This document shows, one piece after another, positions 1 through 23,870 of a DNA stretch of 27,819 bases. The notes below the pieces were generated by a model. The model was not told the DNA's origin. It searched no databases and was given only the letters and a program-made list of their open reading frames with translations. The DNA comes from Syncephalis plumigaleata (Eukaryota > Zoopagomycota > Zoopagomycetes > Zoopagales > Piptocephalidaceae): NCBI GenBank assembly GCA_025201365.1, contig JAIXMF010000170.1, positions 1 to 27,819 of the forward strand. Reading direction: 5' to 3'. The position numbers and the translations under genes are program-made. How positions within the stretch are numbered: the stretch's first letter is position 1; each line of letters begins with the position of its first letter.

Positions 1-1007
1 TAAGCATTCAGTGACGTGGTAGTGCGGTTTGTTGTATGAAGTTGATACAGTCAGTATAGTAGTGGAAACAAATAAGAAGAAGTGACAACGATGACAATAA
101 TATCTCTGGAATAAATGCAAAAGAGAGAAAGAGAGCAAAGGGAACTGTATGCTATAGCGGTTTAAAATTCGCATATAAGAATAGAATAAAGGGAGAGGAG
201 AGAGAAGAAAGCGACTTACTGATGCAAACACGCAGATGGTTTAAAATCAATAGGAGTGAGAAATCAATGTCATTGTTTACCATTCAAGCGATATTTACAC
301 AATAATTTCAGCTTACAACATTCAACATCGAATAAGCACTACTTATATCCAGTATGAATATGTAGTAATTCCATATTAATAGGACACTAAGCAGTATCAA
401 ATAAATATGTGATATTCATTAGGTGTCTATCATTGCTAATACATTAATGAATGATCTGTATTGACTAGCATGTCTATACTCAATTGATCATGTCACTCAC
501 TAGTTGTATGTATGGCCAAATGGTAATAGCTCATACGTTGTACATTCATGTTAAGAGGAATGATTTGTATGCGTGGATATTGCTTGTTGATCTCACTAGA
601 ACTGATGACGCAATCATACACTCGATATCCTCATCTATTCATGTTTACACTACACCACTCATTAACAATGGCAAGTCAGCGCATATTACGTTGTTTGATT
701 AGTATCAAGTAAATGTAGCATTTATAATCAATCAATGAATAGTGCTGTCATACTGATAGATACTAGTAGTAGTCATTGTAGATTAGGTAAAAGTGTCTAG
801 ATGTAAGCAATTCGATTGCGTATCTACTGTCCGATATCCATATGATTGACATGGCACAATTGCAGCCTGTTTGATGTTCATTAGGACAAAGGTGACATTC
901 ATGCATGGTAGCATCATTCAGAAGCAATTATTGGATATTTGATGATATCGATTTGTCTATTCTGTATGGCATTGTTGTATTACAACTATTCCACCTATAA
1001 ATAAACA
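1..1007. other. Left flank, no supported gene
   Basis: This AT-rich stretch has no long open frame with a recognisable product. The first 230 bases of the plus strand are purine-rich, with several GA-rich runs. The short open frame at 484-702 has no homology I recognise and no codon signature. Around 803-868 there is one intron-like unit (a GTAAGC donor, a CATATGATTGAC stretch and a GCAG acceptor) that resembles the repeated introns further right, so the array may have a decayed outlier here. A TATAAATA motif lies at about 995-1002. Confidence 0.5.
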
Positions 1008-1132
1008 ATGCTAATCGATTCATCTTATCATCATCATCAGGTGTGTCTACTCTTTTTATTCTATTCCATACTCATTACTCCATTTCGTTTGTTTGTTTGT
1101 TTGTTTGTTTGTTTCTCTTGCTCTTCCATTAG
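1008..1132 (+). other. Possible 5' coding exon and first intron of the micro-exon gene
   Basis: An ATG at 1008 opens 11 codons (a His-rich stretch ending in CAT CAT CAT CAG at 1040). A GTGTGT donor follows at 1041, then a T-rich stretch with GTTT repeats (about 1086-1114) and an acceptor CATTAG ending at 1132. From 1133, four further codons run in the same frame into the ATG at 1145. The gene could therefore start at 1008 and be 15 residues longer. Against this, GTGTGT is a weaker donor than most here, there is no clear CTAAT branch site near the acceptor, and the TATA-like motif at 995-1002 is too close to the 1008 ATG. I take 1145 as the default start and leave this as an alternative; the region could instead be 5' untranslated. 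Confidence 0.3.
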
Positions 1133-1144
1133 GACAATATCAAC

Positions 1145-4100
1145 ATGGAATCATCTGCTGATAACAATAACGATAATAGCCAACCTATAGTTAATGCTAC
1201 AACATCCGTATCATCAAATTCCACTGGTATTTCTATTATCATCATCATCATCGATACTAGTCAACATACTAATTGTAATACTACTATCTAATGGTCTTTC
1301 TAATGACAATCAATAGATGGTAAGTCTATATCGTATGACATCGATTGCAATGCTGATGATGATGTCACATATGATGCTGTCAATCATAGCTGGTGAGTTA
1401 AACAACGAGTGAGTATGACATATGTCGTGTTGACTGGAATGTAAATCAAAATCATATGTCACTATTATAGAAGCAGACGTAAGTTGATATTCTGTCTAAA
1501 TAAACATACAACGTACTAATTGCAATACTCGTATGATAGGATGTGAGTTGTGAATCACGATGATCCTGTGCCATACACTCATTGAAATGTGGCAATCGAT
1601 TCCCGTATGATTATCATGCATAGGAACACGTAAGCTACTAGTATCATTGCAATAAGCCATTTGATTCACGTATGATTGCATGCATTAGTGGGTAAGCGAG
1701 CACTCGTTGGAATGTGGCATTCGATTCACTGATGATGACGCGTAATAGATTGTAAGTGGGCGGTATTCTGATTGCAGTATACGTCATGCTAATTGCAATG
1801 GCACAATTGCTTCACTTGCCATTCCACACACACACACATATATGACAGCATGTAGGTGATCATTTCGATCATAGCATACGATGTGCTCATTACAAGTTGA
1901 CATGTCATGATACGTGTACGATGACCTGTAACAGGATGTAAGTTGTTAGTCTAGCATTACTGTATAATGTACTAATAACAACAACAATCATCATCATTCT
2001 CTTTGCATATGATTGCACTAGTATGTAAGTGGATATTTCCATACTAATGCATAAAGTGTTAATAGCAATGCATCACACACTCATACATACATAATAGATT
2101 GTAAGAAGTTAGCATTCCAGTCTTACTAGTCGATGTACTCATTACCCTATGGCATACAATTCACATATGATTACGAGTAATAGTATGTAAGTGATGATTA
2201 TTGCAATGTGCAATCGGTTAATTACAAATTGATTGACGATTCACATACGCATCCATGTAACAGAGGGTAACTAGACATTCCTATCGTGATATGTGTGATG
2301 TGTTAATCGAAATGAGGAACATGGATCATGATGGATGATTACACGGCATAGACTGTAGGTTGTCATTCTAGTGTCAGTATACGGCATACTAATCATAGTA
2401 TTTATTCATTATTACGAATAATAGGAGGCAAGTCATTATGATGACTATAGAATACGATATGCTAATTGTAGCATGATGCATGATTGACTTGTAACAACAC
2501 ATGCAGAAAGATGTAAGCTAGCATTCCAATAATAATCACAATAATCATAATGGATGACATGCTAAGTGAAATGCTTCATACAATTCATATACGTGTGTGT
2601 GTGTGTGTGTGTGTATGGTGATCACACAACATAGAGCGTAAGTTAACACGTGGACTGCAATCCCAAAAGTGTAGCTCACCTATGACGATGGAATACAATA
2701 GGCCGTAAGTTATCATTTCGATTGAAGCATATGAGACATTAATTGGAGTATGGAATACAATCCACGTACTATTACGTACAACAGAAGGTAAACTAGCATT
2801 ATAATGACAATAGACAGTGCACTAATAGGAGTGTTACATGTGATCTGTATACGACTATGTACAGCGAATAGTAAGCTAGTACTATAATGACAATGGATGA
2901 TGTGCTAATTGTAACATGGCATACAATCCATATGCATTTATGAATGGCAGGGAGTAAGTAAACATACTGATTTCACCATGCGATGAGCTAATTATATTGT
3001 GAAATTCACGTATGATTATGAATGGCAGTGGGTAAGTTAGCATAATGCCTACAGCATACGATGAGCTAATCGCAAATTGATATACATTTTACGTATGAAT
3101 ACACGTTACAGTTTGTAAGTTAGCATAGAGATTTCAGCATGTGATATGCTAATTATATTGTGAAACTCACGTATGATTACATGTAACAGAGGGTAAATTA
3201 ATTGTGATTAGAGCATGCAATCAACTGATTATAATTTGGTGGTCAATTCAATTATTGCTACATATAACAGAGAGTAGGTTTGCATAGCAATTATAGTGTA
3301 CGCTGGGCTAATCGTGAATTAATATATGACTCACTTACACTTATGCACATCAGGGGGTAAGGCATAATAGTGATTATAGCACACAATGAGCTAATCGCAA
3401 ACTGGTATGAAATTACTTATGTATACGCACATCAGCTGGTAAGCAAAAATAGTGACCACATCATACGATGAACTAATTGTAAACTGCTATGCAATTTACT
3501 TATGAGTACATGTAACAGAGAGTAAGTTGGCATATGGATTACACCATACGACAAACTAATGATAAGCTGGTATGCAATTCACTTATGATCGCATGTAACA
3601 GCAAGTAAGTTGGTATGATAATTACACCATACGATGAACTAATGATAGGCTGGTGTACAATTCACTTACGCTTATGCGCATCAGTGGGTGAGTCGAAATA
3701 GTGATTGCAACATACGATATACTAATTGTAAGCTTGTATACAATTCAATTATGATTACATATAACAGGAAGTAAGTCAAAGTAATGATTGCAGCCTACAA
3801 TGAACTAATCGTAATGCTACGTCTTCTATATGATTATGAATGATAGGCCGTAAGCTAGCGCCATAATTGCAGCATACGATGCATTAATCGTAATGAATAC
3901 GACCCATATGTGATTACAAATGATAGGAGGTAAGCTATTATTTGATACCAATGCTGAATGAACTAATTGCAAGATGCTCTATGGCTCATGTATGCTTACA
4001 TTTAATAGGAGGTAAGCTGGCAGGTTGGTTACAAGATGTGCCACGCTAATGGTAATGTCATTGAATGATTCACATAAAACTACAAATGTCAGAGGGTAAG

Positions 4101-4663
4101 CCAGCATTTCAGCTAATTTCCACAGCACATTAATCGTATTGTGGTATACCATTGACCGTTGATTACGTATGAAAGAAAGTAAGTCATCATTCTGATTACA
4201 ATCTACGGTATGCTAATCGGAATGTGATATTTACTTGTATCATTATTATTATAGAAAGTAAGCAGACACCGAATGATAATGCATCACGCACTCATTACAA
4301 TGGGAATACAATCCACGTATAATCATTTACAGAAAGACGTAAGTTTTGTCGTTTGATTTGGTCAAGCATCTTGTGAAACTAATCCACTATTGTATGCCCT
4401 AGTTGGAGAAGGCGAATCAACATGTAAGTTGATGTCACGATTACAATCTACGGCATACTAATCGAAATATGACAAATGATTGACGTATGGCCACATGATA
4501 GCTTGTAAGTTAAACGTGTCAGTTAGTAGACATGAAGCATTAATCATAGTGTGACATACAACTCCCGTATGATCATGGATACTAGGATGTGAGCTAGCAT
4601 CTTTAACGTTAATACATCGATCTAATTGCAATACGATGTACATTATTTGAATGATAGCAATAA
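1145..4663 (+). CDS. Micro-exon gene: about 81 codons over 43 coding exons, 35 of them single codons
   Basis: I do not recognise the product. Exon 1 (1145-1226) encodes 27 residues rich in Asn and Ser. Later exons lie between an acceptor (mostly TAG or CAG) and a donor (mostly GTAAGT or GTAAGC): 1317 ATG; 1390 CTG; 1471-1478 AAGCAGAC; 1540 GAT; 1624 GAACAC; 1689 TGG; 1749 ATT; 1849 CAT; 1935 GAT; 2022 TAT; 2098 ATT; 2184 TAT; 2264 AGG; 2352 ACT; 2425 GAG; 2507 AAAGAT; 2635 AGC; 2702 GCC; 2785 AAG; 2865 CGAATA; 2951 GGA; 3029 TGG; 3112 TTT; 3190 AGG; 3271 AGA; 3354 GGG; 3436 CTG; 3519 AGA; 3602 CAA; 3685 TGG; 3768 GAA; 3847 GCC; 3927 GAG; 4009 GAG; 4093 AGG; 4176 AAA; 4255 AAA; 4333 AAAGAC; 4403-4423 (7 codons); 4502 CTT; 4586 GAT; 4658 CAA then TAA. 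Exon 1 ends in phase 1 and the 8-nt exon restores phase 0; all later exons are multiples of three. Joined, the 49 codons from 1540 stay open to TAA, while both other frames hit stops. The C-terminal part is charged and helix-like, with three Trp and a basic stretch. No signal peptide or membrane segment is seen. The exact ends of the 8-nt exon and of the last exon are the least certain. Confidence 0.78.
1227..4657 (+). repeat. Array of 42 related short introns with a unit of about 83 bp
   Basis: Intron lengths run from 57 to 122 nt, with many at 75-81 and about ten at exactly 80. They share a loose consensus: GTAAGTTAGCAT at the start, a CATACGATG motif, then CTAAT followed by TGTAA or CGTAA near the middle, a CACGTATGATTACATG motif about 20 nt before the end, and TAACAG or AATAG at the acceptor. 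The block 3032-3770 is the most regular. The intron from 1752 contains a CA microsatellite and the one from 2513 a GT microsatellite, which explains their greater lengths (97 and 122 nt). The intron from 2428 begins with GCAAGT, so it is a GC-AG intron. The Sac1, Mad2 and HMG introns in this window do not carry the CACGTATGATTAC motif, so the family looks confined to this gene. Confidence 0.8.
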
Positions 4664-5976
4664 GCAGTAAGTAATAATCCACAATAATTATACCCATACT
4701 GATCCAGTATGATCAGAGCAAGACAAGGACATCATCAAGTAAATATCATAGGTATTCAAGTCAAGAATGTATTGGTGCAAGACCCTTTAGTGCCCATGCC
4801 ATTCAAGTCATTATTCCTTGGACCAAGAAATATATCTACAAGTCCATTCAATCGCTTATTGAATAAATATGTCGTGTTTTGACCATTATAATTTTCATAA
4901 TTCTTTGAACACCCTATGATATACTCTAGCTTGCTCATTCAAGAATGTATAAACGCAATAGTATCATCTTCTATTTCTTCATTGCTTTGATGTTTTGTAT
5001 GAGCAATGGTATTGAGTGAATACACGAGTATCGGCATTCATGTTTGTGATAAAGCATTATCATTGCATTTGTAAGCAACTTGATGGTAAATGGATGGTTC
5101 AAATCAATGAATACCGAACAGGAATAGCAATTACAATGACATCATTCCCATTCCTAATAAGTCATCATCATTCTATTGGAATTGACTATTAGATGACAAT
5201 GTCTATTGCCCTATACGACGTATAGAATGAATGGTACGCCATAATACGTTTTTACTTGAATGGCTTAAATCACAAGCAGCATCGGATGTATAATCCTTAT
5301 TTCACTCAAACTTCCGGTGCATGCCATAACAATAATCAAGTTCCCATGATAATATAGATAGCGGCAATTTTCTCCTTTTTTTCACGTTTACACGCATTAT
5401 GAAAGTGCCGTTTAGCTTGTACTTGCATTTACGGAATAGCCATATTTGGAGGACATGACACATGGCATACAATTATGACACGAGGAGGTATAGAATAGGA
5501 AACTGCCCTAGTTAGAAAACCCCTTCAGAAGAACGCTAGGCCAATTTCCTTATTCCTAAAATGTCAATCAATCCATTTAGAGATAAATTGCTGTATATAA
5601 ATGGTAATTCCTTTTTAGTCCACTACAAATACTAATATTCTGTAATGCCAAATATTAGTAGCAAGCAATACTTGTCCTACCGTTTATTTGTTGTATTGAG
5701 GCCTTAAGGTTCTCCCCATTTAAACGGTAGCTCCGTTAGTTTGGTATTCCGCATAAAGACGAATACATGTGTTTGTTGTTTCATCATCTACCCTCTCTCT
5801 CTTCTTCTGCTTATTCGCGTTATCCATTACGGTAGAATTGATTTATATCTGGCATGCAACAATGCGCGAATTCCCCAATGTCATTATTCAACTTTTAATC
5901 ACTTTTTACGTTACTTTCTCCTCATTACGACTGCAACGAACGTCGTATTTCTTTCCTTTCATAACAATCAATCACG
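4664..5976. other. Intergenic region between micro-exon gene and secreted-protein gene
   Basis: No gene could be supported. The first part is presumably the 3' untranslated region of the micro-exon gene; a further GTAAGT at 4668 follows the stop codon and could start an untranslated intron. The short frames at 4756-4938 (minus) and 5741-6068 (plus) have no recognisable product. A perfect 10-bp inverted repeat, CTACCGTTTA at 5677-5686 and TAAACGGTAG at 5721-5730, lies about 250 bp before the next start codon. A TATATAAA motif is present near 5594. Confidence 0.5.
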
Positions 5977-6778
5977 ATGACTGGCATTATCAGCAGATTG
6001 GTAATAGTAGGATCCCTATTAATGTTAGCATTATTACAAATCATTCAAGAGCATGCACTTCAAAGTAATGCCATGCCAATGCCATTGTCTTTTAAATCAT
6101 CGACATCATCCAAATCTAGCGGAGGGGGTACAAGCAAGTTTAAACTATTTGGATCATCATCCAGTAGCAGCAGTAGTGGTAGCAGCAGTAGTACTGGTAG
6201 TACTGTTGGTAGTAGTGGCGCCTTGGGCCTTTTAAATAAAATCACGTCAAAAACATCAAGTAAAACGACCAGCTCTACCGATAGTAAGACATCGAGTTCT
6301 TCCGATAAAAAGGATCAAGATACAAAGACCGATTTGAAACTTAGCGCTATTCCATTACCACCTGACAGTAGTAGTAAAGGAAGCTCGAAAGGTGGCACGG
6401 CCATCAAAGGTATAGCTAAACTGTTTAAACCTTCTCACAAGGGCAGTTCAGAGTTGGTTAATTGTCATGATACAATGAACTCGAAATACTCCAAGGATTC
6501 CGTGTCAACGGTCGGGAATAATCAGGAATTAAAGATAACCTCCAAATGGAGTGTTATAAACGATGGATGTCGAGCTGATGGTACACTCAATGGCACTAAA
6601 GTATCCATAAAATGCAAGTCTGGCACTGCAATTACAAGTTTCCTGAGCATATTTAAAGGAGCGGTAAGTGACATGGCGTCGTATACTAGCATGATATTAG
6701 CATGATATTAATAGTGACTTGTTTGTATAGGAAAAAGCATCGTTCGAACATAAAAAGTACAAATGCTCCGTGTCCTAA
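5977..6778 (+). CDS. Small secreted Ser-rich, four-cysteine protein
   Basis: Family not recognised. The model has two exons, 5977-6663 and 6731-6778, and encodes 244 residues. The N-terminus has a hydrophobic core typical of a signal peptide, with a likely cut near residues 25-30. Residues about 35-150 are low complexity: runs of Ser, with Gly, Thr and Lys. The C-terminal part of about 90 residues is more ordered and contains four Cys. The intron (6664-6730) has a GTAAGT donor, a TTAAT-like branch site and a TATAG acceptor. Without splicing, the frame runs into a short tail and loses the fourth Cys, so the spliced form is more convincing. The stop codon is at 6776-6778, six bases before the retrotransposon begins. 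A role as a secreted effector or wall protein is possible but is only inference. Confidence 0.75.
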
Positions 6779-6779
6779 T

Positions 6780-6784
6780 GATCT
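6780..6784 (+). repeat. Target-site duplication, left copy (GATCT)
   Basis: GATCT directly precedes the 5' LTR and recurs directly after the 3' LTR at 12203-12207. A 5-bp duplication is the usual length for Ty3/gypsy integration. It fixes the exact ends of the element. Confidence 0.93.
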
Positions 6785-7060
6785 TGTGATGATGTCTACC
6801 GTTTTCGGTAGAATCATGTCATGATTAACAGCCCCTCCAAGTATAAATAGGTCCAACTAGAACCTATCTATCATTATCGAACAAAAAAGCTATCTTTTAT
6901 CCCCTCTCTCAATAAAAAGCGTTTATACCTTTCGAAAATCCTCTCGTTTATTTGATATTGCAAGTATAGAATCGTAGCGTAAAGGTATATTTACTGGAAC
7001 CTACGATTACGGGTCTTTGATATTAACCCAATTACACGCTGTTCTCACTAGAACGCCACA
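6785..7060 (+). repeat. 5' LTR (276 bp)
   Basis: It starts TGTGATGATG and ends CGCCACA. A TATAAATA box at 6842-6849 and an AATAAA signal at 6911-6916 are the likely promoter and polyadenylation signals. Two short palindromes sit near the left end: a hairpin with TTTT loop at 6795-6812 and a perfect AATCATG/CATGATT pair at 6812-6826. By eye it matches the 3' LTR base for base. Confidence 0.94.
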
Positions 7061-7062
7061 AT

Positions 7063-7080
7063 TGGTGGAGAACCCGGGCG
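7063..7080 (+). other. Putative primer-binding site
   Basis: TGGTGGAGAACCCGGG begins two bases after the 5' LTR. Its TGG start fits pairing with the CCA end of a tRNA, and the position is right for the minus-strand primer site. I cannot say which tRNA is used. Confidence 0.55.
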
Positions 7081-7270
7081 GTATCAATCGTAAAGATACT
7101 GCCAACTATACTTACAATAACAAATATACACCTCGTCTCTCCCCTCGCTCTCGCTCTCTTCGTTTTTACGCCTATAATATCACGAGTCATATATTATCTT
7201 ACCTTATTTCTTTTATATATTTCCTTTACGTCCCTTAACGACCTTACCACAGCTTCTGGTACACAACTGC

Positions 7271-8410
7271 ATGTCCCGCGAGTTGCGAGCTCTAGCCAAC
7301 GATCCACACAGCGCACATATCATGGCTACATTGCAGCAACCTGGCCAAGACAACCAGCCAGACGCAGGACCTGCCCCTCGTCGAGATGCCGCGCCCAACC
7401 GTGTCGAAGGTACCCCTGTTCCAGCACACGAGGACCTTGCAAACCCTTTCGGCGAGTACACGCCAAATGCTCGCCGAGTTTGTGAACTCGTGAACGGTGT
7501 AGCAACCCGATTAGATGAACTACAAGTTAACGAGCAGAATCAAGTGCAAGAGTTTCTCAACGCACACCAACGACGCCACGATTTAGCTCACCTATTTCGG
7601 AATGCTGCGCCCACGCATCAAGTCAACTTCCCGCCAGTACTCCCTCCCATCAAGATTGAAGAGTACGATAGGAAGAAGGAGGACTTCTACACGTGGCTTA
7701 CTCGTTTTGAACTTATCGTCGCCAAATACGAGCTGCTCAACGACGAGAGTATTCACCAGCTCATGATTGCCATGAGTCGCTCATACCCTCAATGGGCCCG
7801 CACCACGAGTTTGGCGCTGGATCAACGTCCGATGACGTACGGTGACGTGCTAAATAGCTTAAAACGACATGTACTCGGTGGCGACCCCATCGATAAGGCG
7901 ATGTTGCAATTCCGCCAGACACGTTACCGATCGCCGGAAACGTTACGAAGCTACGCCAATCGTATCACCGAAGCTGCCCTCAACGCCAATCAAGGACCGG
8001 AAGAACAATGGACGCAATTCCGATGTGGCCTTCCGGAAGATTTACGCTCGCACTTGACGTTACACCGCATCACTAATTGGGAACAGATGATGGACTTTGT
8101 GGATGATCTCGATGTATTAACCAAGCAACGCAAGTCACATACTGTCGCCGCCCTCGATATACCCAATCCTGATCCGGTTGTAGCTCACGCCGCTCCTCGC
8201 CCACAACAGAATGCTCATCGTAGACCTAACACCAACCGTCCTCGTCCAGTCACTCGTAGCTGCTTCCTTTGTGAGGGTACGGATCATTTCAAGAATGATT
8301 GCCCTTACGCTGACGCTATCCAGGAAGCGATTCGACAAAAACGCAATGCACCTGCAGAACGGAATGTCGAGGCTGACGTCAATACTGGCGTGCAGCAGAC
8401 GGAAAACTAG
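7271..8410 (+). CDS. gag: Retrotransposon gag (379 aa)
   Basis: The start is an ATG about 210 bp after the LTR. The N-terminal part is Pro/Ala-rich, the middle is an alpha-helical capsid-like region of the type seen in Ty3/gypsy Gag proteins, and the C-terminal part is basic with one CCHC zinc knuckle (spacing C-x2-C-x4-H-x4-C, encoded at about 8261-8302) that would bind the element RNA. The length is normal for the family. pol follows in a different frame with a short overlap; many family members make Gag-Pol by programmed frameshifting at such overlaps. Confidence 0.93.
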   Translation: MSRELRALANDPHSAHIMATLQQPGQDNQPDAGPAPRRDAAPNRVEGTPVPAHEDLANPFGEYTPNARRVCELVNGVATRLDELQVNEQNQVQEFLNAHQRRHDLAHLFRNAAPTHQVNFPPVLPPIKIEEYDRKKEDFYTWLTRFELIVAKYELLNDESIHQLMIAMSRSYPQWARTTSLALDQRPMTYGDVLNSLKRHVLGGDPIDKAMLQFRQTRYRSPETLRSYANRITEAALNANQGPEEQWTQFRCGLPEDLRSHLTLHRITNWEQMMDFVDDLDVLTKQRKSHTVAALDIPNPDPVVAHAAPRPQQNAHRRPNTNRPRPVTRSCFLCEGTDHFKNDCPYADAIQEAIRQKRNAPAERNVEADVNTGVQQTEN

Positions 8411-8415
8411 AACGG

Positions 8416-11400
8416 GTGTGTGCCATTGAGGCCGCGCACGCCCAAAATGCTGATAAGTCCTCGGTAACCTTCGCTACAAGCAAAACCTCCAGCCAAGGTA
8501 TTATGCTCGTAACCGGTACCATCGGTGGAACCGCATCAGATATGTTAGTAGATACTGGCGCGCAATGTACAGTGGTGACTCAAGATCTCTGTCGACAAAT
8601 CGGTCGAAAGTTACCCCCACACACTGCGTCCCAAGTAAGGTTAGCTGACGGCAAGTCCGTTCAAACTCGTGGTCGCATTTTAATTCCTATTAATGTGGCA
8701 GGAGTTAGCGCTACTATTAATGCTATCATCTTAGACATGGCTCCTTACCCTGTTTTGTTAGGTATGGACTGGCTGAGTCATCCTTCGATTCGTGCCAATG
8801 TGAATTGTTATGATGGTATCATTAGTATAGCAGATCAACATGTGGAAACATCGGTTATGACAGATATGTCTGGTGTACTAGCTATGCGCGTACAGTTTAT
8901 CGCTGCTGATGACCCTTGGTCGTCTATACCTGTGAACGCGATAGTTCATGACACGTCCATTAATCATGTTGATGACAGAGTCGTTGAATCCCACTTCCCT
9001 ACTACTGCAGTAGAGAAAGCCCGTTGTGAAGAGAAAATGAATCATTTATTACATCAGTATCATCGTGTTTTTGCTATTAATCCTAAACGTCCCGGCATCG
9101 TCACCAAGACGAAACATCGTATTGACACCGGCGACTGTTTACCTATCAACTCTCCGCCTTATCGTTCATCTTTCAAGCAGCGCGACAAGATCTCTCAAGA
9201 AGTGCAAGAAATGTTGAAGAACAATATCATCGAACCATCTCATAGTCCCTGGGCATCACCGATCGTACTCGTTGGTAAGAAGGACGGAGGTGATCGATTC
9301 TGTGTCGATTATCGACGTCTGAACGCTATCACGAAGAAGGACGTTTATCCTCTTCCTCGAATCGACGACGCGTTGGATGCTTTAGCTGGCGCTACCTGGT
9401 TTAGCACGCTAGATCTGGCCGCTGGTTATTGGCAGATCCCAATGTCTGATGCTGACAAGGAGAAGACGGCGTTCATCACGAGCGATGGTCTTTATCAATT
9501 CCGCGTTATGCCCTTCGGTCTATGTAATGCACCAGCAACATTTCAGCGCATGATGGATGAGGTTCTCGCAGGCTTGAAGTGGCGTACCTGTTTGGTATAT
9601 CTTGACGACATCATTGTTTTCGGCCGCACTTTCGACGATATGCTAATCCGCCTTGAAGAAGTGTTCCTACGACTGATCAACGCTGGATTACGCTTGAAAC
9701 GTTCTAAATGTCATTTCGCGCAACAAGAAATTGCATACTTAGGACACATCGTCGGAGCTCGTGGTCTCTTACCTGATACAAGTAAAGTTGACGCCGTACG
9801 CAAGTTCCCTCAACCTGTCGATATTCGTGGTATCAAGAGCTTCCTCGGCCTAGCATCCTATTATCGTCGTTTCATCCCCAACTTCGCCACCATCGCTGAA
9901 CCATTACGTCGACTAACCAAGAAAGGAGTACCATTTGAGTGGACACTCGAGCAACAATCTTCTTTCGAGCGGTTACGACAGACCCTTTCCAGCGATGCTG
10001 TCCTCGCATTTCCGAAGTTTGACCGTCCATTCCGTGTTGAAACCGACGCGTCCTCTGTAGGATTGGGTGCCGTGCTTGCTCAGCAACACAACGATGAATG
10101 GCGACCAGTAGCTTATGCTAGTCGAGCTCTTTCTAAAGCGGAAAGTAACTATTCAGCCACTGAATGTGAATGTTTAGCTATAATCTGGGCTTTGGAAAAG
10201 TTCCGTCCTTACATTTATGGTTGTCCGTTCACCGTCGTCACAGATCATTCTGCTTTACGATGGTTAATGAGTCGTCCCGTTTTAACTGGAAGGTTAGGAC
10301 GATGGACCCTCAAGTTACAGGAATGTCAGCCCACCATCGAATACCGTAAAGGCACATCTAATGCCAACGCGGATGCTCTTTCTCGTGATCCGTTGCCCTG
10401 GAGCCACTTCGTTAGCGAATGTACGACGAATCCCGACACACCAGATGAAGAAGTAGACAGCAACGAACAGCGCGACTACCCGATACCACTTATCGAATCT
10501 CCAGCAATCGCCGCCGCCGTAGACGAAGATCCATCCGTGAACGAAGAGAGTTTGGCCAACTCGATTCCGACATTACCTACACCCGACGAATGGCGCGATG
10601 CTCAGCGTGACGACGTTGAGTTCGAAGGTGTTTACGCCTTCCTATCCGACAACAAGCCGTTCTTCGAGGAGGTTGGTTCCGAAATGCTACGCAAGATTCG
10701 ACGCCGCGCTGAATCATACCGTATACAAGATGGCAAGTTACTACGCATTAAAAAAGGTCAACGACTTGTAGAAGTAGTACCCGCTGTCTACCGCCAAGCT
10801 GTATTATATCACAATCACGACGTCCCTACAGCTGGCCATTTCGGTGTCTATCGTACATTCAAGCGTATACAACAAGGTTATTGGTGGCCATCGTTATATC
10901 AAGATACTTACGATTATGTAATGTCTTGCCCGTTATGCAGTCGTCAACGCGCGCCCGCAAAACGCACAGGCTTGCTACAGTCTATTCCAACCCCTGAGCG
11001 ACCTTTCGATCTAATCGCTATCGATTTGGTAGGACCATTCGAGTGTACTACTAAAGGTAATAGATATATAGCTGTGTGCGCCGACTACACGACACGATGG
11101 ATCGAAGCTGCCGCCATACCGGACCCATCTGCTACTACGACCGTACAGTTCCTATTAGACTACGTTATCGCTCGTCACGGTGTTCCTCAAGCTTTACTTA
11201 CCGACCGCGGTACAAATTTCACTTCCGATCTAACAGTACATGTCGCCAAAGCACTCGGTATTCAACAGCGACTTGCTACCGTTAGACGCCCGCAAACCGA
11301 CGGATTGGTCGAGCGTTTTAACAAGACGCTAGCTAGCATGTTAGCCAAGTTCGTTAATGAACAAGGCACCGACTGGGATACGTACCTACCACTATTAATG

Positions 11401-11883
11401 TTCGCTTATCGTTCCACGCCGCAAGCTTCTACTGGTCACACTCCATTCCAACTATTATATGGCCGAGAAGCGCGACAACCACTAGACGCAGCAGTAAAAG
11501 GAGTTGAGCCTACGCAGATTCGACATGCAAAGAAGCGCGAAGATTACAGTAACTACGTCGAAGAGTTACAACGTAGACTAGAAGACGTGAGAGAACGCGC
11601 TCTTGTCATGATTACAGCAGCTCAACAACGACAGTCTGCGAGGTACAATAAAAAGCGAAAAGGTGCTACGTACGAAGAAGGTGACTTGGTCATGGTCGAG
11701 AACACGAACCAAAAAGGATCGAAGTTAGAACGACTACGCAACAAAATGCTTGGACCATACGAAGTGAAAAAGCAAACCAGAGCAGTCAATTATACCCTTG
11801 AAAAAGTAGGTACTAAGGAGATACTCCACACACACGCGGACAGGATGCAAAAATACATACCCAGAAGTACCACCCAGGAGTAG
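8416..11883 (+). CDS. pol: Retrotransposon pol: protease, RT, RNase H, integrase
   Basis: Domains in order, numbered from 8416: an aspartic protease with DTGA at about residues 46-49; a reverse transcriptase with the YLDD active site at about 395-398; an RNase H with a TDAS motif near 543 and further acidic residues; an integrase with an HHCC zinc-binding domain from about 795-845 and a D,D-35-E core (Asp in AIDLVG near 869, Asp in LLTDRG near 929, Glu in GLVERF near 965); then a GPY/F motif near 1115. There is no chromodomain. The product would be cut by its own protease into the enzymes that copy and insert the element. The frame is open upstream of 8416 to 8377, overlapping the end of gag, so it is probably expressed as an extension of Gag rather than from its own start. 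Confidence 0.95.
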   Translation: MCAIEAAHAQNADKSSVTFATSKTSSQGIMLVTGTIGGTASDMLVDTGAQCTVVTQDLCRQIGRKLPPHTASQVRLADGKSVQTRGRILIPINVAGVSATINAIILDMAPYPVLLGMDWLSHPSIRANVNCYDGIISIADQHVETSVMTDMSGVLAMRVQFIAADDPWSSIPVNAIVHDTSINHVDDRVVESHFPTTAVEKARCEEKMNHLLHQYHRVFAINPKRPGIVTKTKHRIDTGDCLPINSPPYRSSFKQRDKISQEVQEMLKNNIIEPSHSPWASPIVLVGKKDGGDRFCVDYRRLNAITKKDVYPLPRIDDALDALAGATWFSTLDLAAGYWQIPMSDADKEKTAFITSDGLYQFRVMPFGLCNAPATFQRMMDEVLAGLKWRTCLVYLDDIIVFGRTFDDMLIRLEEVFLRLINAGLRLKRSKCHFAQQEIAYLGHIVGARGLLPDTSKVDAVRKFPQPVDIRGIKSFLGLASYYRRFIPNFATIAEPLRRLTKKGVPFEWTLEQQSSFERLRQTLSSDAVLAFPKFDRPFRVETDASSVGLGAVLAQQHNDEWRPVAYASRALSKAESNYSATECECLAIIWALEKFRPYIYGCPFTVVTDHSALRWLMSRPVLTGRLGRWTLKLQECQPTIEYRKGTSNANADALSRDPLPWSHFVSECTTNPDTPDEEVDSNEQRDYPIPLIESPAIAAAVDEDPSVNEESLANSIPTLPTPDEWRDAQRDDVEFEGVYAFLSDNKPFFEEVGSEMLRKIRRRAESYRIQDGKLLRIKKGQRLVEVVPAVYRQAVLYHNHDVPTAGHFGVYRTFKRIQQGYWWPSLYQDTYDYVMSCPLCSRQRAPAKRTGLLQSIPTPERPFDLIAIDLVGPFECTTKGNRYIAVCADYTTRWIEAAAIPDPSATTTVQFLLDYVIARHGVPQALLTDRGTNFTSDLTVHVAKALGIQQRLATVRRPQTDGLVERFNKTLASMLAKFVNEQGTDWDTYLPLLMFAYRSTPQASTGHTPFQLLYGREARQPLDAAVKGVEPTQIRHAKKREDYSNYVEELQRRLEDVRERALVMITAAQQRQSARYNKKRKGATYEEGDLVMVENTNQKGSKLERLRNKMLGPYEVKKQTRAVNYTLEKVGTKEILHTHADRMQKYIPRSTTQE

Positions 11884-12433: not shown

Positions 12434-15400
12434 CTAGGAAAGTGCTGCATCCAATAGCATTTCCTCCTGCTTAACGTGTAGCTTCTTTTTACCAGTGGCA
12501 ACTGCACCGGTTGGACCTCGACCAGCATAGGAGACCTTAGCGTTCTTGTGGTGCTGTGTTTCCTGCATTGTAGTAATGATACGTGGCTCGACGTAGGTCC
12601 AAGGGCCAAAGTTCAACGGCTCCTCTTGACACCAGAATATCTCGGCATTAGGATAGTGGTCGAGATGCGGCCTGATCAACTCGTACGGGAATGGACTAAT
12701 CTGCTCGATACGACTGATGGCGACATCCTTGATACCACGTTGCTCGCGCGCCTGGATCAATTTATAGTAGACTTGACCAGAGCATAGGATATGACGACGA
12801 ATCTTGTCATTGGCCACTAGATCGCCCTTTACGTTGTCCTCTGGGATGTAGCGTTGGAATATCGTTTCATCGGTCATTTCAGCCAGGGTGGAGCGTGCCA
12901 ACGGATGACGTAGCAATGACTTGGAGGTGAAGACGACGAGCGGTTTACGGAAGTCGCGGAACAATTGACGACGCAATACGTGGAAATAGCTGGCGGGCGT
13001 ACTAGGGTATACCACCTGCATGTTGCAATCTTGATGTTGACGGGCCAATTTCTCCGCGGTTGGATAATGGTAAGGATTGTCGTCGCACAGTTGGAGGAAA
13101 CGTTCAATACGTCCACTACTGTGTTCCGGGCCTTGACCGTCGTAACCGTGCGGTAGTAGCATAGTAAGACCGGTGCGTTGTAGCCATTTCTTCTCGCCGG
13201 AAGCGAGGAACTGATCGATGATACATTGAGCATTATTGGCAAAGTCACCGAATTGTGCCTCCCACATGACAAGTGCATTCGGGCTGACCAACGAGTAGCC
13301 GTACTCGTAGCCGAGTGTACCGAATTCCGATAACGACGAGTTACAAATGGTGAACGGTGCCTGTTGCGGATCCAGCTTACTCAACGACACGTATTGCTGT
13401 TCGCTCTTTTGATCGTGTAGAACGGCGTGTCGCTGCGAGAACGTGCCACGCTCGACATCTTGTCCGCTGAGACGTACGTGTTTTCCCTCCATGAGTAAAC
13501 TACCGAAGGCGAGTGCTTCAGCGGTTGGCCAGTCGATATTCGCACCTTCATCGATGGTCTTGCGACGTGTCTTTAGAATACGCGCTAGATTGGGATGCAC
13601 GCTGAAATCGTTGGGATACGAGCTGATAACGCGACCAATATGCTCGAGCATATCCCTCGGTGCACCGGTCGGGTAGACACGCGTAGTTTCGTTGGCTAAT
13701 TCGCGTGGCGATTTGAAACCATTCCAAATGCTAGCCATCCATTCGCGTGGCGTTGGCTCGTAGTTCCTACTGGCGGCGTATGACTCTTCGAGCATCCTCC
13801 ATACACGATCCTTCATTTCTTTGATTTCCTCAGCGGTGAACGAGCCTTCATTCATTAGACGCTCCTCGTATAGTTGCAATGCCGGGCGTTGCTCCTTAAT
13901 CTTGCGATACATGAGCGGTTGTGTAAAGCTCGGCTGATCCGTTTCGTTATGTCCTTGCTTACGATAGCAAACGATGTCGACGACAACATCCTTCTTGAAC
14001 GTTTGACGCCATTCCGCCGCCAATTGACATACGAATACGACGGCCTCTACGTCATCACCATTTACGTGGAATACCGGTGCGTTGACCACCTTGGCCACAT
14101 CGGTACAGTAGGGTGTGGAACGAGCGAAGCGTGGATCCGTGGTGAATCCGATCTGATTGTTGACGACGACGTGAATGGTACCGCCGGTCGTGTACGAGGG
14201 TAGATCGGACATGCCCAATGTCTCGTAGACAACACCTTGAGCGGCGAATGCTGCATCACCATGCATCAGTACACCCATACTGTGAGTGCGCTCCGGTTCA
14301 TCGCCCGCGTAGAATTGTAGTGCGCGTGTCTTGCCTAGAACGACCGGGTCGACCGCTTCCAAGTGGGATGGATTTGCTTCAAGCGACAAATGCACCCGTT
14401 TACCACTGGGTGTTGGTCGATCGTAATTCATACCGAGATGATACTTGACATCGCCGGAACCCTCCACTTCCGATGGATCTTGTAGACCGCTAAACTCGCA
14501 GAAGATAGACTCATTTGGCTTGCGAACGACATTGCTAAGCACGTTGAGACGACCACGATGCGGCATACCCATAACAATGGAACGAATACCCAAGTCGACA
14601 CTACGATCGATGAGTGCTTTCATGCCGGGAATAAGCGACTCGCAGCCTTCGAGACCGAATCGTTTTTCACTTGGATACTTGCCAGCTATAAAGCGTTCGA
14701 ATGAATCGGACCAAATAAGCCGATCAAGAATCATACGCTTCTCCTCGATCGAGTAACGATAACGAGTAGGAATTTCGACACGCTGACGAATCCAGTTACA
14801 CAGATTACGATCAGGAATATGACAATATTCGATACCAATGGATCCACCTAATAGTATAAACAGCGATTATTATTAATGTCATTATCATTACCAGTATACA
14901 TGTATTTATCTTACTTACAGTAAATTTCATTGAGATGATCGATAATCTCGCGTAATTTCATCGTGGATCGTTCATAAGTAATGAATCCTGGCAACATACC
15001 GGGACCTAGGGTGATTTCACGGTCTAGATCCTTGGAAGTGAATCCGTAATTCTCGATTTCAAGTTCTTGCGGGAATGATGAGTCCAAGTCAGCATCTAGA
15101 ATGCCCAATGGATCGAGTTTAGCGAGATGATGACCCCGCATTTGATAGGCGCGCACCAACAGTTGCACCTTAAGATGATCGAAAATATCGTCTGACTGAC
15201 TACCGGCAGATACAGAGGCTTGAGCACCGACAACAGTACTGGCCGGTGTTACAACACTACCTGGAACAATGGTAGGCGGTGCTTGGTAGGCTTGACCGGG
15301 AGGAGCGCCACCGGCCACGTTCTTAAAGTAAGTTTGCCACGAGAGATGCACGGAGGTTGGATCATTTCGCCATGCTCGATACATTTCATCGACGTAATTA

Positions 15401-15579
15401 GCCGAGCTACCTTGTAGGAACGACTCGCTATTATTCGGTTGACTAGTAGTGGATGCGAGACGTCGAACGGCCGACGATAATCCAAAGGTAAGGGGACGAG
15501 CGGCAGCAGCCCGTAGTGAGGAGTAGGCTGCAGGACGCAGGGATCTACGCATAGATTGCTGAAGCAACGGCGACAGCAT
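12434..15579 (-). CDS. KGD1: 2-oxoglutarate dehydrogenase E1 component, mitochondrial
   Basis: This is the thiamine-diphosphate E1 subunit that decarboxylates 2-oxoglutarate in the TCA cycle, working with E2 and E3 in the mitochondrial matrix. There are two exons, 14919-15579 and 12434-14847, with an intron at 14848-14918 (GTAAGT donor, ATTAG acceptor); the joined protein is 1024 residues, close to the family norm. The first 45 or so residues are rich in Arg, Ala and Ser with few acidic residues, as in a mitochondrial presequence. Next comes the short N-terminal domain ([14 protein letters not shown]). The [10 protein letters not shown] motif lies near residue 313, the [10 protein letters not shown] motif near 416, followed by the [10 protein letters not shown] stretch of the cofactor site and [10 protein letters not shown]. 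The C-terminal transketolase-like half is complete. Coding GC is higher than in the flanks. The start is the first ATG of the presequence. Confidence 0.96.
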
Positions 15580-15970
15580 TGTGGATGATAAATGTGTAGT
15601 AGAAAACGAAGAAAAAGGAAGATATATTTGGTCGTATTGTCAAAGGTCGGGTGTTGCTCAGACGGGTGGCAGTTTTATACCACGAGTACAGTGGTGATAT
15701 AGAAATATCGAGGTAGATGGCTATATATGACGTACACGCGACTCTGACTGGTCTGGTGTATAATGGAGCGGATGTTTTTTATTGATTATTATAATAGGTT
15801 CGACGGAATTGATCGGAAAAGATGCAACGGTAAGACTTGCTCTTTTTTTCCTTTACTTTTTCATTTATAGTTCAGTCTATAGGCTAATTAATAATGCTAC
15901 TATTATTGCAAGAATAAATAGGAATGGAAAGAAGAGCGGTAAACTATTTTAATACTATTATATTCAGTTT
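15580..15970. other. Intergenic: dehydrogenase promoter and Mad2 3' flank
   Basis: On the minus strand a TATAAAA-like motif at about 15673-15679 lies roughly 95 bp before the dehydrogenase start codon and is a candidate promoter element. The right part is the 3' flank of Mad2. No further gene is supported. Confidence 0.4.
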
Positions 15971-20568: not shown

Positions 20569-22399
20569 CTATCCGATACTTTTGGTGTCTTGTTCAATAG
20601 GAGAAACCGATATAGTCCTGAATCGCTTGTCGGCCATGATGCCGTTTATGTCGGTTATCTTCTTCTTCTCTATGAGCGCGCTCAATTCTTGCATTGCTTT
20701 GAATTGCTTTTTCACTAGGGATTTCGCGGCAGATGATGTAATTTGTTTGAGCGATGCGTCCCAATTTGCTTTGACTTCGTTACTATTTAGTACAACATCA
20801 ATTAGGCTTTTTATGGTAGGCACATCATTGTTATTAGGTTCTCTTGCTGCCTTCGCCTTCGCCTTCGCTTTTGCCTTCGATTTTGCCGTCGCTCTTGTTT
20901 TTGGCTTCCTGGCATCTGAAGAGTTGCTGGTATCGCTTGCGCTAGCCATACCACTAACGTCAATGGCTGCTCTTCCAAAGCCGGCGAATTTTATTGTAGG
21001 CACCCCCTTGTTCTTATAACTAACGTAAATATCTATCGTGCATAGCATTAGTCTAATCCATGATTGATGATAATAATAATAGCAATAGCAATAGCAACAA
21101 TTAACTTACTGGCCATGTTAGCTTCGTTATAAATGATTCCTACGCTATTGAAGAGTGATACGGCTGTACAGCAATATCAACGTTAGTATAAGCGTATGAA
21201 CGTATAAGCGCCTAATATAAATGGCATACCTGTAATGACTTGGCTAATAATGTTTGGCAAGGAACGGATTTTATGTGCAGTTATTTTGTTGTAGATGTAG
21301 GATTTGAATCGTACATACTCCTTGGATTGCTCATAAATAAAGCAGCCAATCTTTTTGTCACTAGTTTGCGCACTGGCCATGACTTCTAGCATGATACTAT
21401 CTAATAGCTCTCTCGTCAACGCTAGACCCTTCCTCTTTTCTTCGATATATTTATGGATTTCTCTTTCGTTGTCGTAGTATCCCGGTTCCTTGTAGCATAC
21501 GATCATGCATTTTGTACCCTTCCAATTCGTTGTTGTCCTATATCCCTCCCAGTCAATTCTGCTCTTTTTCCAACTGATCGGTGCTAAACCATGACGCTTA
21601 GGAAATTGGAGTAGAATATCATCCTTCTTATAAGTGGCGGTCATTCTCAACTGAGGATACGATGCAAATGATTTTACGTTTTTCACTCGAGCTGGTTTAC
21701 CCGAAATAGTGCTTGACGAACTGGGCGTTCCTACGCTGCTTGCAGGATTCCAGGAAGATGACGAGTCTGGATCCAATTGTTGAAGCCATTGTTGCAGCTG
21801 TTGATCTATCGAGATATCGCTTGAAATTGGCATAGGCATTATATCATTGCCTGGATTACCCCAAGGTGGTGACAGGTTTACACTTGTAAGCGGGGTCCAT
21901 GGTTGCCACGGTTGTCCCGCTAGATTCTGGTTCATACTCGACATTGACATTGCTGCATTGCTTGTATGATCCCAAAGTGGTGGTACCATGTTCATGTTTG
22001 GATGCTGAAGCCATTGTTGCTGTGATTGCTGTTCCATCGGATGATGGTTTACATTTGACATAGGCATTATAACGCTGCCAGCATGATTCCAAGATGGTGG
22101 TGGCATGTTCATGTTTGGATGCTGGAACCACGGCTGTTGTTGCTGTCCCATTGGATGTTGGTTAAAACCTGTCATAGGCATCATAACATTGTTTGGATGG
22201 CCCCACTGAAGTGGCATGTTCATGCTTGGGTCTTGGAACCAGGGCTGCAACTGCTGCTGCTGCTGCTGCTGCTGCTGTTGTTGTTGTTGTTCCATCGGAT
22301 GATTGCTAAAACCTGTCATTGGCATCATAACATTGTTTGGATGGCTCCATTGAAGTGGCATGTTCATGTTTGGATCTTGAAACCATTGTTGCTGCTGTG

Positions 22400-22430
<31 letters not shown>

Positions 22431-22571
22431 CTGCTGTTGCTGGTCCATCGGATTTTGGTTTGAACCTACCACAGGTGTTTGATTTGGCGGTAGGAACATG
22501 CCATGAACATGGTGGGAGAGCAGTAAGCTCGTACTAAATAGTAGCTTGCATAAGGTTGGCGTATAATTCAT
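20569..22571 (-). CDS. Secreted Gln-rich repeat protein with a degenerate kinase-like domain
   Basis: There are three exons: 21230-22571, 21110-21163 and 20569-21032. The introns at 21164-21229 (branch TACTAAC) and 21033-21109 (branch CTAAT) join in frame to give 619 residues. A hydrophobic N-terminal segment (TLCKLLFSTSLLLSHHVHG) looks like a signal peptide. Residues about 40-280 form five or six imperfect repeats of 35-50 residues with NMNMPLQW, PNNVMMPM and poly-Gln tracts (mixed CAG/CAA). After about residue 300 the order resembles a protein kinase: a beta-3-like MIVCYKE with a Lys, an NEREIHKYI helix with a Glu, a strand GCFIYEQ, then ISQVITAVSLFNSVGIIYNE. The catalytic-loop equivalent reads GIIYNEANMANIYV, with Glu at the Asp position, and the DFG equivalent reads GFG, so the domain is probably a pseudokinase. 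It then runs into a Lys/Ala-rich linker and a helical tail. The kinase reading is by motif only; I do not recognise the family. Confidence 0.72.
22255..22283. repeat. Trinucleotide (CAG/CAA on minus strand) tract
   Basis: A GCTGCT run passing into GTTGTT on the plus strand encodes one poly-Gln stretch of the secreted protein on the minus strand. A similar tract lies at 22388-22441. Both are likely to vary in length between isolates. Confidence 0.8.
22388..22441. repeat. Second trinucleotide tract encoding poly-Gln
   Basis: A mixed GTT/GCT run on the plus strand encodes the first poly-Gln stretch of the minus-strand secreted protein, one protein repeat before the other tract. Confidence 0.8.
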
Positions 22572-23870
22572 GTTATTGGTATGATCCTGTTGAATTGCTT
22601 TTTATAGTAAATCTAAAGTAAACGTATACTGTAGAATGTATGTAGTGCTCCTTGTAATTATGGCTCTACTCCTAATGTATGAATTGATAAATAATACGTA
22701 ATACGCTCGATAGTCTTTGGGGTATACCACGTCTAATAGCACTTGTGTTTACGATAAATTACCGAATGATCGCACTTAGAGTAGGAGGAAACACATAGGA
22801 ATAATAATTGACGATAAGTTCTCGTTGACATGTTGATTGCAACTCATTTTATATAGTAGCACAACATCATTGTTCGCCACTCTCGTGCTATTTCATGTAA
22901 TATCATGGTAAGCTATCCTAATATAACAATAAATAAACGTGACATCTTTCCAATTGTACCGAGATTCAGATGTTTTCGTTAGGTGATATAGCGTGCAGCA
23001 GACTTGACAACGTGAATCCATCCAGTATTAGTTCTGCACTTACTAGTATGAGCATTTTGAGATCACATATTAACAAGTACCATTTGAGAATGTTCAAGTC
23101 AATACCTATCATTACTATAAGTGGGCGTATACACGAGGAGCGATGATGATTCTCGTTCCCTTTTTTTTTCGTATTCCATGACGCTGTGCCACATTGATGG
23201 TCGTTATAAAAAAGAATGATAGTGACTTTCCAAGGCAACACATTATAGCTGATATTCTTAAGATAGCGTTGAATTAGACTGTCTATTTTGAATTAGGAAG
23301 CCATACCTTGTGAGACAAGTGGAATCTAACGGTATACTGCGTGGTATTACGTTACTTTTTCCATTTAAAACGTGTTCCGCTTTTGAAATATAGTAATATA
23401 CACGCTTGTTGATATACAATTAAGAAGTTGGCACGCTAGCGTAGCACATGTTTACTTGTATTATTAGATATAATCGAAAGTGTTTCACCTGTTTCTACTA
23501 TTCTACTTTCTTGATCAAAATATGTCATACCAATGAATCGCGTGAACATGATCGGACATGTAGGAGCAGATATTTGGAGGAGAGCGTAAAATTTGCTTTA
23601 GCAGATCAATACGTATTTGTTTTGGCAATCCTCAACTATACATATCAGTAGTGTATACTGTCTAGTATTCATAGGCAGTTCTCTGATCTATATTGCAGTA
23701 AAATAATGATACTAATGTTTATTGACTATTCACACAATTCCATATATATTAAATATGGCCGATAACGATGGCCGAATAGGTGTGTCCTATGGAGGAAGAC
23801 TAAATATCAAGAAATGGATAAAAGGAAATCTAAAAATATAGGGCGATGGAATAAAAATAGCCGAAAGTAA
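22572..23870. other. Intergenic region, no supported gene
   Basis: The region is AT-rich. The left end is the promoter of the secreted kinase-like gene and the right end is the 3' flank of the Ser-rich gene. Short open frames at 22966-23241 (minus) and 23448-23651 (plus) show no recognisable product, no codon bias and no splice-linked partner. Confidence 0.5.
22598..22606 (-). promoter_or_regulatory. Candidate TATA box of the secreted kinase-like gene
   Basis: On the minus strand the sequence reads CTATAAAAAG about 30 bases before the start codon at 22571. The motif is good but the distance would leave a very short leader, so it may not be functional. Confidence 0.3.

Follow-up and report, generated by a model that had tools for sequence, protein, structure and literature searches.

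The array gene at the locus

The window analysed here is a stretch of 27,819 nucleotides (nt) from the fungus Syncephalis plumigaleata (GenBank assembly GCA_025201365.1, contig JAIXMF010000170.1, positions 1 to 27,819 of the forward strand). At positions 1145-4666 of this strand it holds a gene that, judging from its sequence and that of its paralogs, is very probably protein-coding, with spliceosomal introns that interrupt its coding sequence at almost every codon. In our rebuilt model, this array gene has 43 exons and 42 introns of 57-122 nt: exon 1 measures 82 nt, 3 nt is the exact length of 35 others, four have 6 nt, and one each has 8, 21, and 9 nt. Once joined, they give 81 codons up to a TAA at 4661-4663, with many stops in both alternative frames. 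The model reproduces a preliminary description of this DNA, which had proposed 42 introns within about 81 codons, 35 exons of 3 nt, and a joined frame that is open to a TAA while the two others contain stops.

All parts of the gene lie on the forward strand. A TATA-like box (TATAAATA) is found at 996-1003 in a promoter alignment read by eye, where most of the aligned family genes have CTATAAAT, the locus L033 being an exception (L numbers designate loci with family copies). Exon 1 (1145-1226) encodes MESSADNNN... and ends in phase 1. Introns 1-3 are all in phase 1, and the three micro-exons that follow them (exons 2-4, at 1317-1319, 1390-1392, and 1471-1478) have a contiguous counterpart in the intronless paralogs L063 and L064. 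The 8 nt of exon 4 move the reading to phase 0, which holds for all of introns 4-42, so that each 3-nt exon after exon 4 represents one whole codon. Exons 5-21 (1540-2870) consist of 14 single codons, starting at 1540, 1689, 1749, 1849, 1935, 2022, 2098, 2184, 2264, 2352, 2425, 2635, 2702, and 2785, plus three 6-nt exons starting at 1624, 2507, and 2865. Exons 22-38 (2951-4257) are 17 consecutive single codons, the longest uninterrupted run in this gene, and are given here as modelled, no gapless match to them having been found in L063/L064; exons 22-30 start at 2951, 3029, 3112, 3190, 3271, 3354, 3436, 3519, and 3602, and exons 31-38 at 3685, 3768, 3847, 3927, 4009, 4093, 4176, and 4255. Between 2938 and 3937, Tandem Repeats Finder detects repeats with periods of 78-83 nt.

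The 3' part (4333-4588) comprises exons 39-42, of 6 nt (4333-4338), 21 nt (4403-4423), 3 nt (4502-4504), and 3 nt (4586-4588); the same 21-nt exon is present in L033, and similar ones are in L060. Exon 43 (4658-4666) is made of one codon, the TAA, and GCA, and the stop exon of most array genes listed is likewise TAA-GCA or TAA-GCG. The transcript probably continues past this exon, with an intron in the 3' untranslated region (3'UTR; intron 43, 4667-4716), whose junction is contiguous in intronless copies, and a last exon (4717-4867, end position provisional) that carries the family 3' motif at 4723-4741 and an AATAAA at 4862-4867. The preliminary description had followed the chain as far as the stop exon, and had missed the 3'UTR intron and the last exon.

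Splice signals and common plan of the family

We searched the window and 28 loci (176 kb in total) for chains of introns using splice signals only, with no regard to coding and with equal weights for exon lengths from 1 to 60. It returned 458 introns; of the 424 internal exons, 366 are exactly 3 nt long and none 4 or 5 nt, with the reservation that the signal models were trained on 262 introns preceding 3-nt spacers and may favour such introns. With a small cost per exon base, a second search gave 400 exons of 3 nt out of 481. No chain of at least 4 introns was found on the opposite strands of the same 176 kb.

The introns are uniform, 325 of the 458 measuring 77-83 nt, and their branch A lies roughly 37 nt past the donor and 42 nt short of the acceptor. 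Among 433 distinct introns, the donor is GTAAGT in 313 and a T or C precedes the final AG in 417, while AG is about four times rarer between branch and acceptor than in shuffled sequences (178 versus 755). They therefore display what is expected of U2-type introns, that is a GT(AAGT) donor, a TACTAAC-like branch, a YAG acceptor, and avoidance of AG in between. Structured RNA units within the introns, resembling small nucleolar RNAs (snoRNAs), were considered and rejected, as positions 1-8000 of the window gave only two Rfam matches, both far under the gathering scores (E 0.058 and 0.68), and no consensus fold emerged in the intron sets of five genes.

Most array genes listed share a common plan. 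Exon 1, usually of 94 nt, encodes a MKFSAVIAIAVAVVALTSLVAVEA...RR-like sequence and is followed by short phase-1 exons, by a phase-shift exon or pair (2, 5, 8, or 14 nt), and then by about 4 to 64 predicted 3-nt exons; after these come a stop-containing exon of 9-15 nt and, beyond a 3'UTR intron, a last exon that is conserved. The gene in the window follows this plan apart from exon 1: where the other subfamily has a signal-peptide-like exon, its own first exon is not signal-peptide-like. Its run of 17 single codons is exceeded in L046, where 35 exons of 3 nt follow one another. A reading in which the single codons would stay in phase 1 down to the last exon was rejected, since it meets a stop in L035, and the phase-shift exon resolves the frame.

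Of 24 genes for which coding-blind models anchored at the start and 3' motifs were attempted, 11 read open as far as a stop in the last exon but one, including L046 (40 introns, 73 amino acids) and L051 (44 introns, 78 amino acids). The joined codons of separate arrays (L046, L034, and L054) are moreover alike, by eye, in their cysteine layout, C...CC...C.

The longest array seen lies in L033 (C1:1409000-1418900), where some 76 introns are predicted in one gene along with 64 exons of 3 nt, although its automatic model is not open throughout. In L059 (C318:149200-154600), which belongs to the same subfamily as the gene in the window, a retrotransposon cuts the array after about 10 introns, and an acceptor ahead of the break looks lost.

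Intronless paralogs

The joined codons are found as contiguous DNA in intronless copies of these genes. Micro-exons 2-21 of the gene in the window (20 exons, 16 of them of 3 nt) are colinear with L063 and L064 over 74 nt without any gap, with 52 and 53 identities, respectively, a match that none of 10,000 shuffles of exon order reached in either case. L063 and L064 are near-identical and hence count as one case, not two; they are diverged, L064 having an in-frame stop, and we use them solely as records of the joined sequence. When the exon at 1849 is left out, the match with L064 drops from 53/74 to 37/71, this leave-one-exon comparison being uninformative near the ends of the 74-nt stretch. 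The preliminary description had argued for real coding through the run of single-codon exons, and had held that a homologue departing from the joined codons would speak against it. The paralogs support coding, as they carry exons 2-21 joined and gapless; past exon 21 the same comparison requires gaps, and exons 22-43 consequently rest on indirect evidence.

A second case comes from the signal-peptide branch of the family. In L036, 31 nt are identical to joined exons of L051, with 7 junctions crossed and five 3-nt exons among those joined; the exon list was picked by hand. Across the same 7 junctions, L037 equals L051 for 23 nt. An automated search with no hand-picked exons recovered, for L036 against L035, a match of 22 nt that spans 4 junctions. 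In intronless copies the stop exon likewise runs directly into the last exon.

Concerning the origin of these copies, L063 and L064 retain between two joined exons 13 nt that resemble, by eye, the end of an intron, and they thus seem derived from array genes. The promoter, again by eye, is kept in the intronless L037, L039, L042, and the second gene of L040, and is absent in L036, L038, and L041, which look like retrocopies.

Models of sister genes in GenBank

Two GenBank proteins, P0008 and P0009, hold most of the joined stretch of the gene in the window (...STDAEADDEHWIHDYIY), with identities of 83% (42 residues) and 84% (43 residues), respectively. Only residues 1-28 of P0009 (BDF22DRAFT_655023) are contiguous at its own locus, and all its 130 residues map exactly onto 44 exons in L060, 29 of which are of 3 nt, while none of 60 shuffled proteins could be mapped there. 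A further model, P0005 (BDF22DRAFT_657452, on a contig of 534121 bases), appears by eye to fuse the family signal peptide with an out-of-frame 3'UTR exon and a further protein part, and is likely misannotated.

Sequence conservation and codon statistics

Compared with four paralogs, the gene in the window shows changes at 3 of 429 splice-site positions, at 188 of 3060 positions in intron bodies (plus 60 gap columns), at 9 of 167 in micro-exons (with no gap columns), and at 27 of 324 in exon 1, these comparisons being non-independent as the window is one side of every pair. Two of the three splice-site changes lie in L059, the array interrupted by a retrotransposon.

Among 398 three-nt exons there is one stop codon, against 8.5 expected. 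When the 3-nt exons are scored with the codons of the 2-oxoglutarate dehydrogenase gene present in the window, frame 0 obtains -6.11 bits, compared with -6.66 and -6.36 for frames 1 and 2 and -6.71 for intron DNA.

Copy number in the genome

The preliminary description had dealt with a single gene; the array gene belongs to a large family. We searched the S. plumigaleata assembly (32.6 Mb, 383 contigs) with the pattern donor, branch, acceptor, 3 nt, donor, and found 694+721 = 1,415 matches, versus 8+4 = 12 for the reversed pattern that served as control. A 4-nt spacer gave 6+6 matches (control 9+18) and a 2-nt spacer 65+49 (control 8+2); among the 2-nt matches listed, many are by eye the stop exon or true 2-nt exons.

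Allowing up to two mismatches, and without checking each place for an intact gene, we counted the shared 3' motif at 97+85 = 182 places (control 0+1), the signal-peptide-type first exon at 109+77 = 186 (control 0), and the start of the subfamily of the window at 19+15 = 34, 23 of them exact (control 0+1). The family therefore numbers roughly 180-220 copies, counted as end-motif places. Most of the family starts found encode a signal-peptide-like exon, which the gene in the window does not have, another point beyond the preliminary description.

Protein searches among 5.8 billion sequences at E≤1 returned hits in S. plumigaleata only (1, 6, and 3) and none in other fungi or among schistosome micro-exon genes, although such searches depend on 5-residue words in common and would overlook remote relatives. 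They brought up BDF22DRAFT_672195, an intronless family member. At E≤0.1, Pfam identified no domain in the products of the gene in the window, L046, and L051, nor in P0001 and P0009.

A short element made of a T-run, CTTTTAATNNTGCCGTAGCTT, and then TTTATTATAAT, possibly a tiny mobile element, is dispersed among these loci. One occurrence lies within an intron of an array (L034 3140-3160, +), another next to a last exon (L057 366-386, -), and a third in a copy that lacks introns (L063 516-536, -).

Alternative explanations and origin of the arrays

A number of observations weigh against the coding interpretation. Micro-exons are not always slower to change than introns, with 5 of 68 positions changed versus 86 of 1285 between the window and L033, and 6 of 44 in micro-exons against L061. 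The depletion of stops is confounded, since an AG plus TAA or TGA ahead of a donor would create a second donor, and in the codon comparison the antisense frame 0 scores nearly the same (-6.12) and a uniform model best of all (-6.00). AG is also reduced, about 2-fold, upstream of the branch (257 versus 572 in shuffles), and as the introns are homologous, its depletion must be partly inherited. The coding-blind models are not open to the last stop in 13 of 24 genes: one gave no model, those of the window and L034 make a visibly wrong choice of a 2-nt or long exon, and some resemble decayed genes (L032, L040). L057 has an in-frame TGA exon. To these add the gaps needed beyond exon 21 and the intronless L038, L041, and L039, which share with L051 only 7, 7, and 10 nt over junctions. 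As for the GenBank models, P0009 omits the stop exon and some units, mostly with weaker donors, including the codon at 1849 although its counterpart exists in the intronless copies; P0008 could be mapped for 86 of its 105 residues only, and P0006 reads into an intron, so that P0006, P0008, and P0009 lend weak support to the array reading.

Read-through of the array, or its removal as a single long intron, was rejected because contiguous paralogs carry the joined codons (L036/L051 and L063/L064). The same spacers, joined in order, argue against a non-coding tandem repeat, that is an intron-like minisatellite whose 3-nt spacers would be mere leftovers and which would be either one long intron or untranscribed. 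The units are indeed homologous and in tandem (78-83 nt), so that their 3-nt spacing could be inherited through duplication, and in several GenBank models stretches of the arrays are either read or left out. However, the splice sites are preserved in units that otherwise drift, the spacers vary whereas the introns stay alike, the joined spacers of three arrays have a common cysteine pattern, and most array genes close with the same type of stop exon, in phase, all of which makes a minisatellite very improbable. We regard as hardly more credible, and if anything less so, a recursive (ratchet) splicing process in which the AG-NNN-GT sites would be stepping stones and the 3 nt would later be removed, leaving a mature messenger RNA without most or all of them. 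Such a process would account for acceptors and donors lying nearly back to back and would be harmless to the frame, as after exon 4 any pairing of a donor with a later acceptor preserves it. Known ratchet points, however, have a zero-length exon, whereas here the 3 nt persist in contiguous paralogs, where dropping a middle exon such as that at 1849 degrades the match (53/74 to 37/71), even if the comparison is hardly informative towards either end of the aligned 74 nt.

The last rival concerns the origin of the arrays and not the reality of their exons: introner-like elements may have been inserted between the codons of an intronless ancestor, instead of the arrays having grown by tandem duplication of an intron-plus-codon unit of about 83 nt. 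Insertion agrees with the fact that the introns across these genes form one sequence family, and that very similar introns can flank different codons. Of 24 within-gene pairs of introns with 90-95% identity, 21% share the upstream and 46% the downstream codon, with flanking exon bases of just 38-56% identity; in 7 pairs with 95-98% identity, the corresponding values are 71% and 29%. All these are nonetheless far over the 3% expected by chance, with the proviso that the pairs are mutually non-independent. Moreover, the tandem units include the codon, L049 and L058 contain repeated codon series that differ, by eye, by exactly two whole units, and the 13-nt piece resembling an intron end in L063/L064 suggests derivation of these intronless copies from array genes. 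Insertion thus seems unlikely, if far from negligible, and the arrays probably grew by duplication of the unit. The intron pairs fit unit duplication followed by codons changing faster than introns, either through selection or through gene conversion among introns, and each unit gained or lost in this way would mean one residue more or less, without frameshift.

Possible splicing mechanism and role

At 3 nt, an exon is too small to be recognised in the ordinary way, and exon definition across it is difficult to conceive. Returning to the reading of the arrays as coding genes, their introns may be self-sufficient, each offering a GTAAGT donor, a TACTAAT-like branch about 37 nt further in, and a YAG about 42 nt beyond with few AGs in between. 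Given these near-consensus signals, the uniform length, and the lack of a conserved fold, the introns are likely defined singly, by intron definition. Since neighbouring introns are 3 nt apart, both cannot be held at once, and their removal is probably ordered or alternating.

The predicted products are short and fast-evolving, mostly with a secretion-like N-terminus, and three have the C...CC...C cysteine pattern. Syncephalis is named among mycoparasites (PMC10386755), and these proteins might plausibly be used against the fungal host. We tentatively propose that the arrays could work as a codon-cassette system generating diversity, where 83-nt intron-plus-codon units are duplicated, deleted, and recombined in frame while their codons diversify. 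In such a system, breaks anywhere in an intron would be tolerated and the frame would always be kept. Because any donor after the phase-shift exon fits any later acceptor in frame, weak donors would permit the skipping of single residues, and one locus might then yield many in-frame peptide variants. If the P0009 model is based on RNA, its omission of mostly weaker-donor units would be a first hint of such skipping.

Comparison with known systems

Among the closest parallels are the micro-exon genes (MEGs) of Schistosoma mansoni, which code for secreted variable proteins by means of numerous tiny exons, usually a multiple of 3 in length, and whose main conserved part is the N-terminal signal peptide (PMC10526429). 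The 35 MEGs reported there have 10-20 short exons, mostly of 15 bp, and introns of 0.1-5 kb, the stated minimum exon length differing between the abstract (3) and the text (6) (PMC10526429). The array family likewise has many short exons in multiples of 3, and secretion is suggested by the hydrophobic N-terminus alone, which is lacking in the gene in the window. In contrast to MEGs, the arrays have runs of 17-35 exactly 3-nt exons and introns that make up a single tandem sequence family, in a fungus, and the sizes typical of MEGs are not found: 366 of 424 exons have 3 nt, 325 of 458 introns have 77-83 nt, and the gene in the window alone has 42 introns.

Array genes also resemble the bicycle genes of aphids, in that both look like fast-evolving putative effectors built of many micro-exons that share one phase. 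Bicycle genes have about 17 exons on average, with almost all internal exons in phase 2, and megacycle, counted with them, has more than 100 micro-exons (PMC9168663); a saposin-like fold has been claimed for their proteins (PMC13041983). The array exons differ from these in being mostly single codons between phase-0 introns (introns 4-42 in the window), not phase-2 exons.

Concerning the introns themselves, introners are families of similar introns present many times within one genome (PMC9860276; PMC4457414). Unlike introners, which are inserted in many genes genome-wide, the single intron family that we found across the many paralogous arrays surveyed is in tandem within one gene family, and the codon is part of the unit. 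New introns have been linked to tandem genomic duplication in the RNA-dependent RNA polymerase gene of potato (PMC4974935), a single case, compared with dozens of units per gene here. Spliced exons of 3 nt are on record, as in homothorax of Drosophila (PMC7392893) and in surveys that mention 3-nt microexons (PMC7821500; PMC8831610), but as far as these sources describe them they are isolated micro-exons and not runs. Our search of the open-access literature in PMC turned up no gene in which single-codon exons follow one another, an absence that is not proof.

If faithfully joined, runs of 17-35 such exons would put intron definition, and the order of splicing, to an extreme natural test, and would mean that the spliceosome is able to rebuild a protein one residue at a time. 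They would also offer a concrete route by which tandem duplication of introns lengthens a protein by single residues, with the introns buffering against frameshifts. As gene finders likely mishandle such genes, the few GenBank models that we examined differing in how they handle the arrays, similar families may lie unseen elsewhere.

Neighbouring features in the window

Downstream of the array gene, a serine-rich open reading frame (ORF) with a signal-peptide-like start extends from 5977 to about 6775 (+); it has a likely ordinary intron near 6664-6730, identified by eye, and its part at 5977-6702 has no Pfam match. About 2.3 kb downstream of the array gene, positions 7178-11883 (+) contain ORFs resembling those of long terminal repeat retrotransposons: 7178-8410 is open and gag-like by position, with no Pfam match, and protease, reverse transcriptase, RNase H, and integrase domains follow at 8377-11883 (+). 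A 472-amino-acid open frame at 21183-22601 (-), with no Pfam match above the cut-off, spans tandem repeats of 114 and 144 nt and a CTG run. Finally, the 2-oxoglutarate dehydrogenase gene, with its N-terminus, E1, transketolase, and C-terminal domains, occupies 12437-15639 (-) and consists of two long open frames, indicating few introns in this ordinary gene.

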